Below are positions 10,371 through 19,109 of a stretch of 64,000 nt of DNA, in pieces (the first letter of the stretch is position 1; each line of letters begins with the position of its first letter). The stretch covers positions 3,162,001 to 3,226,000 of the forward strand of contig NZ_CP097332.1 of NCBI RefSeq assembly GCF_023516435.1, read 5' to 3'. The translations under genes were made by a program, and so were the position numbers. Under the pieces are notes generated by a model that did no database searches, had not been told where the DNA came from, and was given only the letters and a program-made list of their open reading frames with translations. Origin of the DNA: Jatrophihabitans telluris (GTDB taxonomy: Bacteria > Actinomycetota > Actinomycetes > Mycobacteriales > Jatrophihabitantaceae).

Positions 10371-12875
10371 TCAGACCAGGTCATACAGCGTGGTGCGCTG
10401 GCGGGCGGGGCGGCCGGCCCGGGCGGCCAGTGCGTGCAGGTCCTCGACCGACTTCCGAGAGCCGTTCTCCGAGCCCGCCATCCGGGAAATGGTCTCCTCC
10501 ATCAGGGTCCCGCCCAGATCGTTGACGCCGCTGCCGAGCATGTCGACGACCCCTTCGTCGCCGAGTTTCACCCAGCTCGTCTGGATGTTGCGGATCCGCC
10601 CGTGCAGCAGGATCCGGGCCATGGCGTGCACTGCCTTCGTCTCGCGCTGACTGGCGCCGGCCCGGGCGAGGCCGGCCAGGTAGATCGGGGCCTGCTGGTG
10701 CACGAAGGGCAGCAGGACGAACTCGGAGAACCCGCCGCTCTCGCTCTGCAGCCGCGCCAGCAGTTTCAGATGGGCGACCCAGTGCCGCGGATGGTCGACG
10801 TGGCCGTACATCATCGTGCTGGTGGTCGGCAGGCCGATCCGGTGAGCCGTCGTCACGACCTCGATCCAGGCCGAGGTCGGCAGCTTGCCCTTGGTGAGCA
10901 CCCACCGCACCTCGTCGTCGAGGATCTCGGCCGCGGTACCGGGCAGGGATCCCACGCCGGCCTCCTTGAGCCCGATCAGGAATTCCTCGATCGACAGGTT
11001 CGCCCGGCTGGCGCCGTTGACGACCTCCATCGGACTGAACGCGTGCAGGTGCATCCCCGGTACCGCCGCCTTGACCGCACGGGCCAGGTCGAAGTACGCG
11101 CTCGCGGGCAGTTTTGGGTCGATGCCACCCTGCATGCAGATCTCCGTCGCGCCGTCCGCGGCCGCCTCGATGACCCGGTGCGCGATCTCGTCCGTGGACA
11201 GGGTGAAGGCGTCGGCGTCGGTGGCCCGCTGGGCGAAAGCGCAGAATCGGCAACCGGTGTAGCAGATATTGGTGAAGTTGATGTTCCGGTTCACGATGTA
11301 GGTGACGTCGTCGCCGACGGCGTCGCGGCGCAACTCGTCGGCCAGCGCCGCCAGCGCCCTCAGACCGTCGCCGTCGGCCATCATCAGCGTCAGCGCCTGC
11401 TCGTCGCTGAGGCCCGCGGGGTCTCGCTCGGCCGCGCGCAGGGCCGCCGAGACCTCGGATGCAAGGGCGCTGGCCCCGGGGGTGAAGACCTTGTCCCGCA
11501 GGGCATCCCAGTCGCCGTAGACCTCGTCGAAATCGCTGCGGCGATCCGCGCTGCGACCCTCGGTGTCCACCGCGGTGTTCAGGTCGATGCGCCCGGAGGA
11601 CACCCATTCCGAATCCGGCTCCTGCCACGCCAACCCGCTCGGTCGTAGCGGCGTACCGCGGTCACCGAGAGCGGCCAGACCGCTCGTCCGGTCGGCCAGC
11701 GCGCGCACGTGTGGCAGCACCCGGGGGTCCAGCCAGGGCGTCTCGGCCCGCACATAGCTCGGGTGCACGGTGAGGCGCTCGGTCAGGCTCAGCCCGCGAT
11801 CGGCCAGCAGCCGGCTGAGCTTGTCGAGCTCCGGCCAGGGACGTTCGGGGTTGACGTGGTCCGGAGTCAGGGGCGAGATTCCGCCGAAATCGTCGACCCC
11901 GGCGTCGAGCAGCAGCAGGCATTCGGTGATGTCCACGAGATTGGGTGGGGCCTGCAGGCGCAGCTTGGGTCCGAGGACGAGGCGGGAGACCGCCAGCGTG
12001 GCCAGGTACTCCTCCAGGTCCAGGTCGGGGTCGTTGCGCATCGCCGTGTCGTCCTTGGCCCGGAAGTTCTGCACGATCACTTCCTGGATGGCCCCGAACT
12101 GGCGCGCGCTGCCCCGAATGGCGAACAGCGACTCGGCCCGCTCGAGCCGGTTCTCCCCGATTCCGACGAGGATGCCGGTCGTGAACGGGATGTTGAGCCG
12201 GCCCGCGTCGGTCAACACCCGCAGCCGGACCTCAGGATCCTTGTCCGGGCTGCCGTAGTGCGGGCCGCCCGGCTCGGTGAACAGGCGCCGAGCCGTCGTC
12301 TCCAGCATCATGCCCATGCTCGGGGCCACGGGCTTGAGCCGCTGCAGCTCGGTCCAGCTCATGACGCCCGGGTTGAGGTGAGGAAGCAGTCCGGTGCGTT
12401 CCAGGACGGCGATCGCGGCGGCCCGGACGTAGTCCAGAGTCGAGTCGTAGCCCCGTTCGTCGAGCCAGTCACGGGCGGCCGTCCAGCGTTCCTCGGGTCG
12501 ATCGCCCAAGGTGAACAACGCCTCCTTGCAGCCCAGCGCCGCACCCTGCTCGGCGATGGCGACCACCTCGTCGATCTCCAGGTAGGCCGACGCGACCCGG
12601 TGCGGAACGGTGGCGAACGTGCAGTAGTGGCAGCGATCCCGGCACAACCGGGTCAGCGGGATGAAAACCTTGCGGGAGTAGGTGATGACGCCGGGGCGAC
12701 CGGCCTGCACCAGGCCGGCGTCCCGGACCCCGACGGCCAGCCCCATCAGCTCGGTCAACTGCTCGCCGCGGGCGGCCATCAGCACCGCGGCCTCCCCGGT
12801 GTCCAGGGCGGCGCCGTCTCGGGCGCGGCGCAGGGCGCGGCGCAGGGCGGACTCGGACGGCTGTTCGACGCTCAC
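10371..12875 (-). CDS. fbiC: FO synthase (bifunctional CofG/CofH)
   Basis: Makes 7,8-didemethyl-8-hydroxy-5-deazariboflavin (FO), the chromophore of F420, from tyrosine and a ribityl-pyrimidine intermediate. The 834 residues contain two radical-SAM halves. The N-terminal CofG-like half has [11 protein letters not shown] (Cys78, 82, 85); the C-terminal CofH-like half has [10 protein letters not shown] (Cys538, 542, 545). This fused form is normal for actinobacteria. GTG 12875 is the first start and has only a weak ribosome site. It is on the opposite strand to fbiA and fbiB, which follow about 2 kb away. Confidence 0.97.
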
Positions 12876-13118: not shown

Positions 13119-13276
13119 GTGTGGGTCCTGACGAATCGAATGCGGTACCCGTGGGGGGCGGGACGGCGAAAGCGTAGCGATGTAGAACCTTCGTTAAGTG
13201 GAGGTTGATGATCTTCGGCGCGTCCTGCCCGGTCGGCGTCGGAATATCCGCCCAACCCCTGTCGGATAATGGGTTC

Positions 13277-13939
13277 ATGGCCGCCGTCCCGCCCGAACAG
13301 CCCGCCCCCTCGGCACCGTCCGAGCCGACCGTCGAGATCCACAGCGAGGCCGAACTCACCGAAATACTCGGCATCGCACTGCCCGCCGCGGCGAACAAGG
13401 TTCGCCCGGCCCTGCACGATCTCGATCGACAGTGGCTGGCCGCCTCACCGTTCTGCCTGGTCGCCACCTCTGACGCGCACGGACACTGCGACGTCTCCCC
13501 CAAAGGCGACCCCGCCGGTTTCGCGCTCGTGCTGGACGAGACCACGCTGGCCATCGCCGAACGCCCGGGCAACCGGCGCGCGGACGGCTTCCGCAACGTC
13601 CTCGCCAACCCGCACGTCGGGCTGATCTTCCTGGTACCGGGCCGCACCGACACCCTGCGCGTCAACGGCCGCGCCCGGCTGGTGCGCCAGGCGCCGTTCT
13701 TCGACCGGATGACGGTGCGAGGGCACCGTCCAGCGCTGGCTCTCGTGGTCGACGTGGAGGAGGTCTTCTACCACTGCTCCAAGGCTTTTCTGCGGTCGAA
13801 GCTGTGGGATCCGCAGGCGTGGCACCCCGAACAGGTGCCGGACCGAGCCGACATCGTGCACACCGTCGAACGCCCACACGAGGACCTGGCCGCCATCCGC
13901 GAGCACTACGGCCCGTCCTACGCCGAGAACCTCTACTGA
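13277..13939 (+). CDS. PPOX-type flavin-binding oxidoreductase (MSMEG_1061-like)
   Basis: Protein of 220 residues with the split-barrel fold of the pyridoxamine-5'-phosphate-oxidase superfamily: PFCLVATSDAHGHCDVSPKGDPAGF near residue 58, then DETTLAIAERPGNRRADGFRNVLANPHVGLIFLVPG and the late helix SKAFLRSKLWDP. These match the FMN-dependent MSMEG_1061 group; some relatives in this superfamily use F420, which is notable beside fbi genes. ATG 13277 follows a GATAAT -10-like box by six bases, suggesting a very short leader. It overlaps the next gene by one base (TGATG). Confidence 0.85.
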   Translation: MAAVPPEQPAPSAPSEPTVEIHSEAELTEILGIALPAAANKVRPALHDLDRQWLAASPFCLVATSDAHGHCDVSPKGDPAGFALVLDETTLAIAERPGNRRADGFRNVLANPHVGLIFLVPGRTDTLRVNGRARLVRQAPFFDRMTVRGHRPALALVVDVEEVFYHCSKAFLRSKLWDPQAWHPEQVPDRADIVHTVERPHEDLAAIREHYGPSYAENLY

Positions 13940-14919
13940 TGCCGACCTACGTCGACACCGTCCGCGACTATCCCGACGCGGGCCTTCGCTACACCCGCTT
14001 CTGCCATCTGCTCGCCGATGAACGCGACGAACTGCACGCCCTGGCCGCGCACCTGGGCATGCCGCGCCGGTTCTTCCAGGACCACCCGTGGCGCTGGCAC
14101 TACGATCTGCCCGAGCACCTGCGTGCAAAGGCGATCTCGCTCGGCGCGGCCGAGGTCGAGATGCACTTCGTGGGCCGACTCCTGCGCAACCGTCGCGAGA
14201 CGGCCCTGCGCATTCCGGCGCAACGGTCGCCGCGACTGGCGACGAGCCAGCCTGAGCACGCCGCGCTCGACGGTGAACACCTGCCGCTGGCGTTGCGGGT
14301 CGCCCGACTGTGCCTGGATCCGGCCAGCGGCTCGATCACCCATCGCCAGCACGTCGGCATGGCCATCCGGGGCGCGTTGCTCGTCGAGTTGGCCGAGGCG
14401 GGACTGCTCGTCGGGCCCCGGGTCGCTCACGCGCAACCAGGGACCCCGCCGCATCCGATGCTGGCCTCGGTGCATCGAGCCGTTGGCGGGCGCCCCGGCC
14501 TGCCCTTCGGGCGGTGGTTCTCCCACGTCGACGCCGACCTCAGGGCTGCGGAAACCGCCTTGCTGGACAACGGGATCTGGGTCTGCGGGCCGGACGGGCG
14601 GTTGACCGACGGGTCGGCGGGAGCGGTGCTGGTCCGGGCGCAGGAGATCGAGGGTCTGCTTGCCCCAGCCAGCCCAGCCAGCCCGGGCAGCCCAGCCAGC
14701 CCGGGCAGCCCGACCAGCCCGGGCAGCCCGGGCAGCGCACGGATCGAGGGCCTGCTCGCGCTCGGCGGCGGCCTGTCCGGCGGTCGACCTCGTCCGCGGC
14801 TCGCGCTGGACTGGGGCAAGACCGCCGGATTCGAGGGCAACCCGACGGTCGCCGCGATCGTCGAACAGACCCTGCGCAAGCAGCGCGGCCTGGCCCTGTT
14901 CCGGGTGCTCTCCGGCTGA
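13939..14919 (+). CDS. DUF4031 domain fused to a GPP34 (GOLPH3)-like domain
   Basis: Protein of 326 residues. Residues 1-80 match DUF4031 (MPTYVDTVRDYP, HLLADERDELHALAAHLGMPRRFFQDHPWRWHYDL), usually a stand-alone small protein. After a linker, residues 110-320 resemble the GPP34/GOLPH3 phosphoinositide-binding fold seen in actinobacteria: LPLALRVARLCLDPASGSI, the helix MAIRGALLVELAEAGLLVG, PFGRWFSHVDADLRAAETAL and a C-terminal helix TVAAIVEQTLRKQRGLALF. A Ser-Pro-Gly/Ala repeat (14665-14736) interrupts this second domain. ATG 13939 overlaps the PPOX stop, so the two are translationally coupled. The GPP34 call is tentative; no enzymatic role can be stated. Confidence 0.65.
   Translation: MPTYVDTVRDYPDAGLRYTRFCHLLADERDELHALAAHLGMPRRFFQDHPWRWHYDLPEHLRAKAISLGAAEVEMHFVGRLLRNRRETALRIPAQRSPRLATSQPEHAALDGEHLPLALRVARLCLDPASGSITHRQHVGMAIRGALLVELAEAGLLVGPRVAHAQPGTPPHPMLASVHRAVGGRPGLPFGRWFSHVDADLRAAETALLDNGIWVCGPDGRLTDGSAGAVLVRAQEIEGLLAPASPASPGSPASPGSPTSPGSPGSARIEGLLALGGGLSGGRPRPRLALDWGKTAGFEGNPTVAAIVEQTLRKQRGLALFRVLSG
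14665..14736. repeat. 9-bp tandem repeats coding a Ser-Pro-Gly linker
   Basis: Eight 9-base units (CCAGCCAGC or CCGGGCAGC types) in tandem encode a Pro-Ala/Gly-Ser repeat inside the DUF4031/GPP34-like protein. Confidence 0.65.
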
Positions 14920-14947: not shown

Positions 14948-15928
14948 GTGCGCATCACTGTGTTGGCCGGCGGCATCGGCGGAGCGAAATTCCTGACCGG
15001 CGTGCGCGCCTTCGCCGAGCAGCGCGGGCAGGACGGCGACCCGAGCGAGGTCACCGCGATCGTGAACACCGGCGACGACGTCACCATGCACGGCCTGCGG
15101 ATCACGCCGGACCTGGACAGCGTGCTCTACACCCTCGCGGGCGTGATCGACACCGAGCGTGGCTGGGGCCGGGCCGGCGAAAGCTGGCGGATCAAGCAGG
15201 CACTGGCCGAATACGGCGCCGAGCCGAGCTGGTTCGGCCTCGGCGACCTCGACATCGCCACCCACCTCGTCCGCACGCAGATGCTCGACGCCGGCTATCG
15301 GCTCTCCGACGTCACCGCGGCGTTATCGCAACGATGGCAACCCGGCGTCCGTCTGCTGCCCATGACCGACGAACGCTGCGAAACCCACGTCGTGGTCAGC
15401 GGCCCCGGTCCTGAGGACCCGCGCCGCGCCATTCACTTCCAGGAATGGTGGGTGCGTTATCGGGCCGGACTCGCCGCCGAAGCCTTCGTCCAGGTCGGGC
15501 TGGACCAGGCCAAACCCGCTCCGGGGGTGATCGAGGCGATCGCCGGAGCGGACCTGGTCCTGGTGGCCCCGTCCAACCCCGTGGTCTCGATCGGCACGAT
15601 CCTGGCGGTCGACGGTATCGGCGAGGCGGTGCGGACGACCTCCGCCCCGGTCGTCGGTCTGTCGCCGATCGTCGGGGGCGCCCCGGTCCGCGGGATGGCC
15701 GATCGATGTCTGGCGGTGATCGGCGTACCCACGACCGCCGAGGGCGTCGGGTTGCACTACGGGTCCCGACGGGACGGCGGGCTGCTCGACGGCTGGCTCG
15801 TTCACAGCGGGGACAGTGCGGTCGTCCCGGGGGTCTCGGTGCGCCAGCGCCCGCTGCTGATGACCTCCGCGGAGGTCACCGCCGAGATGGTGGCCGACGC
15901 GGCCGGTCTCGTCGGGATCAGCACGTGA
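14948..15928 (+). CDS. fbiA: F420 biosynthesis transferase FbiA/CofD
   Basis: Transfers the enolpyruvyl-phospho (EPPG) or 2-phospholactyl (LPPG) group to FO, giving dehydro-F420-0 or F420-0; in actinobacteria EPPG is the expected donor. The 326 residues show the CofD start [15 protein letters not shown], the NTGDD motif, the [16 protein letters not shown] region and the substrate segment [18 protein letters not shown] 14948 is the only sensible start and has a weak AGG upstream. It ends in a GTGA overlap with the fbiB-type gene. The CofC/FbiD enzyme that makes the donor is not in this window. Confidence 0.96.
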
Positions 15929-17283
15929 GCCGGCCGGGTGCCGCGCCCCCCGACCGCATCGAGATCCTGCCGGTCCTCGGGCTCGGCGAGATCCGGCCCG
16001 GGACCGATCTGGTCGCCGAGCTGGCCGCCGCCGCCGGTTGGTTGCGCGACGGCGACGTCCTGGTCATCACGTCCAAGATCGTGTCCAAGGCCGAGGGCCG
16101 GCTGGTCGCGGCGGGAGTGACCGACGCCGAACGCCAGGCGGCCCGCGACCAGGCGATCGTGGCCGAGACCGCGCGAGTCGTGGCCAGGCGCGGGAGCCTC
16201 ACCATCGCCGAGACCCGGCAGGGCTTGGTGATGGCCGCGGCCGGGGTGGACGCCTCGAACGTGGCCGCCGGCGAGATCGCGTTGCTGCCCGTGGATCCCG
16301 ACGCCTCGGCGGCGGCGTTGCGTGCCGGCCTGGCCGACCGGCTCGGCGTGAACGTCGGCGTCGTCGTCTCCGATTCCTTCGGGCGGCCGTGGCGGCACGG
16401 CATCACCGACATCGCCATCGGGGTGGCCGGGCTGACCGCCGTCACCGACGAACGGGGCGCCGTGGACAAGTTCGGCAACACTCTGATCGTGACGGAGGTC
16501 GCGGTGGCCGATGAACTCGCCGCCGCGGGCGACCTGGTCAAAGGAAAGCTGAACGACATTCCCGTCGCCGTGGTCCGCGGCTGGCGCTACACCGACGACG
16601 GTCTCGGAACCCGCCGGCTCATCCGGGGCGCGGGTGAGGACCTGTTCCGGCTCGGCACGAACGAGGCGATCGCCCTGGGCCAGGCGCAGGCCTCGGGCGC
16701 GGATCCGGACGGCGTGACGGCGGCGGTCACCGCGCTGCACGCCGACACCCTGGCCACCCTGGCCGCGATGCCGCTCGACGCCGCCGACGGCACGGGGCAG
16801 GCCGCGATCCGGGAAGGCTTCTACGCCCTGCTGGCCGCGCGGCCCGACGCCACCCGGCGGGCCTGCGCGCCCGGACACGTGACCGCCAGCGTGCTCGTCT
16901 TCGACCACGACCGCACCCACGTGCTGCTCACCCTGCACCCGCGAGTGGGTGCCTGGCTGCAGCTCGGCGGCCATGTCGAGGACGACGACGACTCGATCCT
17001 GGCCGCCGCCGCACGTGAGGCCGCCGAGGAGAGCGGTATCGCGGGGATCGCGCTGGAACCCTGGCCCTTCGACCTGGATGTGCACCCGATCACCTGCTCG
17101 CTGGGCGTCCCGACGCGCCACTTCGACGTCCGCTTCGTCGGAGTCGCCCCGCTGGGGGCCCAGGCGGTGATCAGCTCCGAATCCGACGACCTGCGCTGGT
17201 GGCCGGTCGACGCACTGCCGAGCGGCGTCGCTGCGGAGTTGCCGGCGCTCATCGCGCGGGCCCTGCGAACGGGACGCCGGTGA
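15925..17283 (+). CDS. fbiB: F420 gamma-glutamyl ligase (CofE) fused to a Nudix domain
   Basis: Protein of 452 residues. Residues 1 to about 270 are the CofE ligase, adding glutamates to F420-0 with [58 protein letters not shown] and [14 protein letters not shown]. In ordinary actinobacterial FbiB the C-terminal half is an FMN nitroreductase-like domain that reduces dehydro-F420. Here residues 310-445 are instead Nudix: [12 protein letters not shown], then a Nudix box near 349-372 ending REAAEESGI, with Asp where the first Glu is usual and one extra residue. No stop or strong internal start separates the parts. GTG 15925 overlaps fbiA by four bases. The expected reductase must be elsewhere or unrelated. 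Confidence 0.88.
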
Positions 17284-18131
17284 ATGCCCTGCAACAGCTG
17301 CGGTCCTGGCCGGTGACAAGAGCCGCGGCGGCGGTCGTGTCCGCGGCGGGTGTGATCGCCGGCCATGGCGACCTGGACGAGCCGTTCCTGCTCGCCTCGG
17401 TGACCAAACCGCTGACCGCGCTGGCCACCCTCGTCGCGGTCGAGGAAGGCGCCCTCGGCCTCGACGTGGCCCTCGGCGAGACCGGGCTGGTCGATGCGTC
17501 CGTCGCCGCGCAGCTGCCGGGCGCGACCCTGCGGCATCTGCTGGCGCACGCGTCGGGAATCGCGCCGGACAAGCCCATCCGGGCGGCGTCCGCGGGCACC
17601 CGCCGGATCTACTCCAACGCCGGCTACGACCTCATCGGGACCATGGTCGAGGCGGCCACGGAGATGCCCTTCGCCCAGTACCTGTCCGAGGCGCTGTTCG
17701 CGCCGCTTGCCATGTCGGCGGCCGAGCTGCGTGGTTCACCCGCCAAGGACGCCTGGGCCGGCGTGTCCGACCTGGCCGGCCTGCTCGCGCACCTGCTCGA
17801 CCCGGCCGGGCTGCTGCACGCCAGCAGCCTGCAGGCAGCGACCACCGTGCAGTTCCCCGGGCTGTCCGGTGTGCTGCCCGGCTTCGGACGTCAGGAACAC
17901 AACGACTGGGGGCTGGGCTTCGAGATCCGCGACCACAAGCAACCCCACTGGACCGGAGCGCGGAATTCGCCGGCGACGTATGGGCATTTCGGGCGCAGCG
18001 GCACCATGGTCTGGCTCGATCCGGCCGCCGGACTCGCGCTGGTGGCGCTGAGCGATCGGCCCTTCGACGAGTGGGCCGCGAACGCGTGGCCGGCGCTGTC
18101 GGACTCCGTCCTGGACGAATTCGGTCGTTGA
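17280..18131 (+). CDS. Beta-lactamase/serine hydrolase family protein
   Basis: Class C beta-lactamase-type serine hydrolase of 283 residues, possibly an esterase or peptidase. The catalytic tetrad SVTK is at 40-43, the YSN tyrosine motif at 111-113, and HFGRSG near residue 240 stands for the KTG box. No signal peptide is seen, so it is probably cytosolic, unlike true beta-lactamases. GTG 17280 overlaps the stop of the CofE-Nudix gene (GTGA), giving the run fbiA - fbiB-type - hydrolase. No link to F420 is known. Confidence 0.85.
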
Positions 18132-18152: not shown

Positions 18153-19109
18153 TCAGATGGCGCGGATGTCGTTCGGGCTGAAGCGCGGCCCGAACTTCTG
18201 CGGCGTCCGGCCGGACAGCTCGATCAGCCGCACGATGCGCGCCCGGTGTCCCCGCCACGGCGCCAGCAGTTCCAGCATCGTCTCGTCGGTGGTACGCACC
18301 GCACCGGCCAGCGCATAACCCACCAGGTTCTTCAGGTGAAAGTCCCCCACGCTGACGGCGTCCGGGTCGGCCCAGGCGCGCAGGGCGACCTCGGCCGCGG
18401 TCCACTCACCGACCCCGGGAACGACCCGAAGGCGTCGGGACGCCGAGGCCGGATCGCCGGACAGAGCCAGGGACACCGACTCCTCCAGACGGCGGGCGAC
18501 CGTACCGGCGGCACGGATGCTCCGGTACCGCTGCGAGTCCACCCCGAGCCGGTGCCACTCCCACGTCGGGATCGCGAGCAGGTCCGAGGGCGCTGGCATC
18601 AACCACAGTTCCGGCGCGTCGGCCCGGGCGGCCGGTACCGGGGCCGGCTCACCGAACCGGCGCAACAGCCCGCGCCAGGCCCGCCACGCCTCACCCCCGG
18701 TCACCCGCTGCTCCAGGCAGCCGGGGACGAGGGCCTCGAGCACCAGGCGGGTTCCGGACAGGTGCACACCGGCCCTCGTCCGTCGGACCTCGGCCAGGTG
18801 CGGGACCCTGGTCAGGTCCAGCTCGGCCCAGGCCGCTCGCTCCGCCTCGGTCTCGCCCACCAGCAGAGGCAGCCCGTCGAGGGTCCAGTCGGCGCCGGGA
18901 CCCCAGGCTCGGCCGGTGAGCACGCCGTCGCGCTGCGACAGGACCAGGGTCGCCGGACCGACCGGCGTCCGGCTCGCTCGCCACAGGCCGTCGAAGCGGA
19001 CGACCATGCTCGGATCGGCAGAGCTACGCCGGTGCAGGCCCAGCGTGCGGGCAAGGTCCAGCGGGCCGGACAACGGGAGCCGACGCAGGAGCTCGGGCGT
19101 GCCGGTCAT
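18153..19109 (-). CDS. DNA-3-methyladenine glycosylase 2 family (AlkA-like)
   Basis: Base-excision repair glycosylase of the HhH-GPD superfamily (318 residues). The helix-hairpin-helix and catalytic region read LRVVPGVGEWTAAEVALRAW followed by DPDAVSVGDFHLKN, with the conserved Asp before FHLKN. The N-terminal half lacks obvious extra motifs, as in other actinobacterial AlkA-like proteins. ATG 19109 is six bases after the stop of the sugar nucleotidyltransferase gene, so it lies at the end of the long polysaccharide transcription unit and is probably unrelated in function. Confidence 0.88.
   Translation of the reverse strand: MTGTPELLRRLPLSGPLDLARTLGLHRRSSADPSMVVRFDGLWRASRTPVGPATLVLSQRDGVLTGRAWGPGADWTLDGLPLLVGETEAERAAWAELDLTRVPHLAEVRRTRAGVHLSGTRLVLEALVPGCLEQRVTGGEAWRAWRGLLRRFGEPAPVPAARADAPELWLMPAPSDLLAIPTWEWHRLGVDSQRYRSIRAAGTVARRLEESVSLALSGDPASASRRLRVVPGVGEWTAAEVALRAWADPDAVSVGDFHLKNLVGYALAGAVRTTDETMLELLAPWRGHRARIVRLIELSGRTPQKFGPRFSPNDIRAI

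Follow-up and report, generated by a model that had tools for sequence, protein, structure and literature searches.

Actinobacterial FbiB, the mycobacterial enzyme included, is described as a two-domain protein in which a F420-0:gamma-glutamyl ligase (CofE) is joined to a nitroreductase (NTR) half (PMC12855090, PMC8764529, PMC8498797, PMC6450877). The archaeal CofE enzymes (2phn, 7uld) are single-domain ligases. A stand-alone NTR is known as a precedent in Thermomicrobium (PMC8498797), and a separate reductase, "CofX", has been predicted (PMC6450877). At the locus described here the ligase domain is fused to a Nudix hydrolase domain. The gene shares with fbiB (PRK13294, or TIGR01916 plus TIGR03553) the CofE half, the order fbiA-fbiB and, apparently, its ancestry, but it lacks the NTR half and carries the Nudix half in that place. 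With the archaeal enzymes it shares a ligase domain free of an NTR, although these have no Nudix half. No CofE-Nudix fusion was found among titles and abstract openings on FbiB, F420 and Nudix proteins.

The window, that is, the whole stretch of 64,000 nucleotides analysed, comes from Jatrophihabitans telluris, and the features of the locus are given in Table 1. Families are designated below by arbitrary labels (f1, f2 and so on), f1 being the family of the host.

Table 1. Features of the fusion locus and the stand-alone nitroreductase encoded elsewhere in the host genome.
Feature	Position	Strand	Remarks
cofE::nudix fusion gene	15925..17283	+	One intact frame, 451 aa, GTG start
CofE (F420-0:gamma-glutamyl ligase) domain, ~residues 10-251	15955..16680	+	PF01996, TIGR01916, 2phn alignment
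Nudix half, including its N-terminal helical extension	16711..17280	+	PF00293, separate Nudix gene of relatives, 3fcm
Nudix box (25 residues)	16966..17040	+	One residue longer than classical; REAxEESG intact
fbiA / cofD, 2-phospho-L-lactate transferase	14948..15928	+	TIGR01819 372 bits, over cut-off
fbiC (CofG-CofH, FO synthase)	10371..12875	-	PRK09234 1450 bits, over cut-off
beta-lactamase-family serine hydrolase	17280..18131	+	PF00144 E 1.6e-34; overlaps the stop of the fusion
Second NTR, locus L002	G000:C1:163315-163923 (outside the window)		PF00881, not FbiB-type

The GTG start of the fusion (15925-15927) overlaps the fbiA stop codon (TGA, 15926-15928) and the frame is uninterrupted up to its own stop (TGA, 17281-17283). 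Pfam finds F420_ligase (PF01996) at residues 19-218 (E 2e-50) and NUDIX (PF00293) at residues 317-433 (E 1.2e-11, over cut-off). The CofE half scores 246 bits against F420_cofE (TIGR01916; cut-off 180.65), as expected of an FbiB, whilst PRK13294 (FbiB) covers the protein only through profile positions 10-258 of 449. No nitroreductase domain is matched in the fusion by Pfam, nor is there a match to TIGR03553, the model of the FbiB C-terminal domain. An AlphaFold model built on 23 sequences (mean pLDDT 73.5, pTM 0.50) aligns in its CofE part with CofE 2phn (Z 26.5, rmsd 3.5, 227 aligned) and at residues 272-451 with the Nudix hydrolase 3fcm (Z 19.7, rmsd 2.8, 175 aligned). Residues 152-158, 171-191 and 232-265 fall below pLDDT 50, and the model therefore leaves the relative placement of the two halves free. 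Judged from domain matches and model, the C-terminal half is an intact hydrolase fold with its box, and the CofE half is expected to retain GTP-dependent glutamylation of F420-0. These data bear out the earlier note on this DNA, which had described a fusion of CofE with a Nudix domain in the absence of the FbiB nitroreductase half and had held the C-terminal half to be Nudix rather than nitroreductase. A nitroreductase hidden in the Nudix half is ruled out by the domain searches and the structural alignment of the model.

The same architecture is found in 22 of the 24 genomes of the host's family, 21 of them with a single near-full-length match and one (G416) with a match in two pieces within one open frame. 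In the remaining two, the match ends at a contig end (G401) or there is none (G394, 77% complete). CofE and Nudix share one frame in all 20 family loci fetched with flanks. Since so many genomes of the family hold the fusion in an open frame, a frameshift or an assembly error joining two genes is ruled out, and the fusion is no artefact. In G416 (locus L187) the linker between CofE and Nudix is enlarged by a short repeat (GRxEGxALGR...). Outside the family, the fusion is present in both f55 genomes fetched and in one of two from f58 (G425).

Surveying the CofE loci of relatives reveals a series of architectures. It begins with full CofE-NTR, followed by a shortened NTR in the sole f23 locus inspected (L228) and by CofE with a tail of ~90-120 aa in f17, f50, f5 and f3 (the exceptions being L205, with 173 aa, and L350, cut by a contig end). 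G469 has a tail of 221 aa, CofE has almost no tail in G334, G271 and G014, and the fusion itself occurs in f1, f55 and G425. Several of the tails keep, by eye, a stretch like the C-terminal NTR helix (LGAxVxxxLVxLxAEG). Because of these remnants, we infer that the NTR half was lost rather than gained; the short tails and the shortened NTR are possible intermediates of that loss. The history of the architectures was read from a tree of FbiA plus CofE (75 rows), which replaced a CofE tree that was too weak for the purpose, having only 3 supported pairs. On the combined tree at least 11 changes of the NTR state are needed, well-supported branches forcing 6 of them. A single origin of the fusion is neither shown nor rejected (AU p 0.109).

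The source of the Nudix half is suggested by gene order. In relatives of the same order, fbiB encoding CofE-NTR is directly followed by a separate Nudix gene whose product is 54-62% identical to the fused half (measured in f2 and f4). A separate Nudix gene lies within the 1.5-kb flanks in 17 of the 29 loci L006-L034. It is found no more than 800 bases after the CofE match in 12/15 f2, 11/11 f4, 8/9 f51, 2/2 f52, 1/1 f54 and 1/2 f58 loci and in all 4 testable f50 loci, and farther downstream in all 6 f3 loci. No Nudix gene was seen beside CofE in 5 f56 loci, in 3 f59 loci or, among other families of the class, in 25 loci that could be tested. Moreover, what appears to be the linker of the fusion corresponds to the N-terminal helices of the Nudix gene itself. 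Both observations argue that the fusion is CofE joined to its old downstream neighbour, as far as gene order and identity can tell. The locus is a well-supported domain rearrangement within a known pathway, and the best explanation is that the NTR half was lost and two neighbours were joined. The wording that a Nudix domain stands "instead of" the nitroreductase implies a domain swap; this comparison speaks rather for an NTR half that was lost and a CofE that was joined to a gene already next door.

Nevertheless, a Nudix gene so placed could have been joined to cofE by a deletion between neighbours with no functional meaning for F420, the Nudix half then being a passenger. Adjacent genes such as these would be joined by a deletion or by read-through; the fusion requires at least 3 changes on the FbiA plus CofE tree, 2 of them forced by well-supported branches; and in f5 the NTR half is gone, yet none of 9 loci has a Nudix gene within the ~5 kb searched. 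Against this, the Nudix gene is found next to fbiB time and again across several families of the order, and G-G-H-x-E and REAxEESG are invariant in all 23 fusions aligned, as they are in all 29 Nudix sequences aligned. We regard the passenger explanation as a serious but doubtful alternative. Given the old neighbourhood and the fusion, an F420-related job for the Nudix half is at most plausible.

The classical Nudix signature carries metal ligands in the motif REUxEExGU. The fused box has D where that signature has its first E, and its extra residue is shared by 25 of the 29 Nudix sequences aligned. The box is altered, as had been claimed, but in a manner that is the norm of its family, with REAxEESG unaffected, and so is nothing special to the fusion. 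The best PDB sequence matches of the Nudix profile, 3fcm and 3f6a, are both named only as NUDIX hydrolases. The Clostridium perfringens protein 3fcm shares the Nudix fold and the N-terminal helical extension with the fused half, although identity in the structural alignment is 16%, and we know of no link between 3fcm and F420. The most likely substrate of the Nudix half would be some pathway-linked nucleoside-diphosphate compound. One guess, along the lines of the by-product policing suggested in the earlier note, is the clean-up of a guanosine diphosphate compound, since instability is expected of EPPG (PMC6450877).

Loss of the NTR half raises the question of whether dehydro-F420 is formed at all. 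If 2-phospho-L-lactate (2-PL) or 3-phosphoglycerate (3-PG) fed the pathway, F420-0 or 3PG-F420-0 would arise directly and the NTR half would be useless and could be lost; 2-PL was accepted in vitro by several CofC enzymes, and organisms that make 3PG-F420 have no need of a reduction step (PMC8764529). Another group obtained no product from 2-PL with mycobacterial enzymes (PMC6450877). The host FbiD scores 119.5 bits against TIGR03552 (cut-off 105) and, aligned to 6bwg, keeps L92, T148, G163 and S166, with K17 replaced by R (residue numbers are those of M. tuberculosis, transferred by hand using an offset of 14). Ser or Thr at position 163 is a reported mark of 3-PG enzymes (PMC8764529), and the host has Gly there, its other retained residues also being unlike those of 3-PG enzymes. 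The 3-PG route is ruled unlikely on this account, and the host FbiD should use PEP or 2-PL. If PEP is the substrate, a reductase is required. Of the "different donor" that the earlier note offered as one way out, 3-PG is disfavoured and 2-PL stays in play. Searching the 24 family genomes with PF01983 gave an FbiD over cut-off in 9 and none in 10 even at E 0.1, the misses including fusion-bearing complete genomes; the host FbiD itself reaches only 31.8 bits, and nothing was drawn from the misses, this profile perhaps being too remote from bacterial FbiD. A pathway without any reductase would, moreover, give the second NTR described below no reason to track the loss of the NTR half, and we consider it improbable.

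A reductase of FbiB type could have moved elsewhere in the genome. The host has 3 PF00881 nitroreductases in total (L002, L003, L004), on which an FbiB-half profile scores at most 33.6 bits, true halves reaching 251-356. A search of the whole genome with one FbiB NTR half gave at best 28% identity (E 0.016). A relocated FbiB half was found by none of these searches. The search for a free FbiB-type nitroreductase proposed earlier therefore came back empty in the host, but a stand-alone NTR of another group (L002, the second NTR) tracks the loss of the NTR half.

The second NTR is present as one copy in each of 21 of the 24 family genomes, and is missing in the drafts G394, G395 and G400. Its score against TIGR03553 is 33 bits (cut-off 249.55), which places it outside the FbiB type. 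Its model (mean pLDDT 87.2) has an NTR fold, aligning with the FbiB C-terminal domain 4xom (Z 16.7, rmsd 3.0, 162 aligned) and with other NTRs up to Z 18.6. In a sample of 101 genomes of the order, it occurs in 42 of 44 CofE-only genomes versus 5 of 53 with full FbiB, where the copies have 41-50% identity, and in none of the 4 genomes without an FbiB match. One of the two CofE-only misses, G485, cannot be called because its contig ends inside the NTR half; without it, Fisher's p is 2e-20 with kinship ignored. Among 120 genomes with inspected loci (a further two, whose contigs break off within the NTR half, were set aside), the second NTR is present in 48 of 52 without the NTR half versus 6 of 68 with it. 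Within f51, G469 has lost the half and has the second NTR; the 8 other inspected genomes keep the half and lack the second NTR. In the class sample the fusion query matches 76 of the 77 genomes that carry the second NTR versus 1 of 64 others, a count made by eye with a query of both halves that does not distinguish which half matched, and it was not used as evidence.

Descent accounts for much of the raw complementarity. A tree-corrected test counting all copies yields 6 independent pairs on well-supported branches, of which 3-5 go the same way and 0-1 the opposite way (mean 4.2, median p 0.125). Discounting six distant copies in NTR-keeping genomes raises this to 5-6 of 6 pairs (median p 0.0625). 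However, that strict label was chosen after the data had been seen, and of the five f50 copies scored as present, four are roughly as distant (48-55% identity); the result with all copies is therefore the fair one, and the tree-corrected support is marginal. The exceptions run in both directions. The NTR half coexists with the second NTR in four f4 genomes, G434 and G085, and in the tree of second NTRs (in which G101 and G225 are labelled NTR-keeping by family alone) the f4 copies and those of G434 and G085 sit on long private branches. Neither is found in G334 and G271 of f30, in the f18 draft G014, or in the family drafts G395 and G400; the first three (loci L232, L233 and L221) may represent a third solution. 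There is no clustering of F420 genes around the second NTR, and such a gene lies nearby in only 1 of 36 loci. That locus is L338 (G248, f48), where fbiA is ~4 kb away on the other strand. In the one-contig genome G411, the match to the second NTR (G411:C1:856740-857348) holds one in-frame TAG.

Another flavoenzyme might reduce dehydro-F420, the second NTR correlating with loss of the half through descent or lifestyle, and the marginal outcome of the tree-corrected test leaves room for this, as do G334 and G271, which manage with neither. The host offers its two further NTRs, L003 and L004, and, between fbiC and fbiA, an MSMEG_1061-family FMN-dependent PPOX-type flavoprotein (13205-13939). Close relatives of L003 and L004, however, appear in only 2 and 0 of 29 family NTR loci, counting best matches only, and the PPOX gene has no match in the 23 loci compared (two of which repeat others, and some of which are short). 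Moreover, in the draft genome G413 (89% complete) PF00881 matches nothing but the second NTR. We therefore judge a different flavoenzyme unlikely, and the second NTR remains our best candidate for the missing dehydro-F420 reductase, and most likely the replacement. It resembles FbiE, the dehydro-F420 reductase of Thermomicrobium (PMC8498797), in being a stand-alone protein of the NTR superfamily proposed for the same step; the likeness is by description, and with its score below the TIGR03553 cut-off the protein may act as FbiE does but is not filed as FbiE. Reduction by another protein thus becomes the best supported of the options raised earlier, although the association is weakened once descent is allowed for.

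We propose that the ancestor had a two-domain FbiB and that a separate FMN nitroreductase took over reduction of dehydro-F420-0 in this lineage. The NTR half would then have decayed and been lost, and the shortened cofE would have become joined in frame to its long-standing Nudix neighbour, whose substrate would be linked to the pathway. The architecture and its conservation, the lack of a recognisable FbiB-type NTR, the kinship of the Nudix half with the neighbouring gene and the complementary occurrence of the second NTR are observations, whereas the sequence of events, the role as reductase, glutamylation and any substrate of the Nudix half are inferred. As a whole, this account seems to us reasonably probable. 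A bolder version, in which the second NTR is the founding member of a distinct and hitherto nameless dehydro-F420-0 reductase class, the predicted CofX, in many actinobacterial families that have lost the NTR half, and in which the fused Nudix is a dedicated hydrolase of the F420 pathway, removing EPPG or a guanosine diphosphate compound akin to it next to the ligase, we consider rather unlikely to hold in both its parts.

Several actinobacterial families thus break the CofE-NTR pattern of FbiB, raising the question of which dehydro-F420 reductase they use. The published expectation of a separate reductase (CofX, PMC6450877) gains a concrete candidate gene, which is a more valuable result than the fusion itself, whilst the fusion gives a hint that F420 metabolism includes the Nudix gene next to fbiB. 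In addition, the NTR half of mycobacterial FbiB is reported to be essential if the glutamate tail is to grow longer than the ligase half can make it alone (PMC6450877), and hence organisms with CofE only or CofE-Nudix may make F420 with shorter tails or use another route.

The surroundings of the fusion are also shared within the family. The beta-lactamase-family hydrolase directly follows it in all 20 loci fetched and fbiA precedes it in 19, the contig of the last (L173) ending before fbiA. Upstream of fbiA in the window lies a gene (13930-14919) encoding a DUF4031 domain followed by a GPP34-like domain, with a SPASPGSP repeat stretch; it is matched in 13 of the 20 loci, some stretches ending too early to tell. 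Downstream, the product of 18153-19109 shows a weak match to a DNA-3-methyladenine glycosylase 2 model (38.3 bits against a cut-off of 229) and is matched in 18 of the 20 loci.
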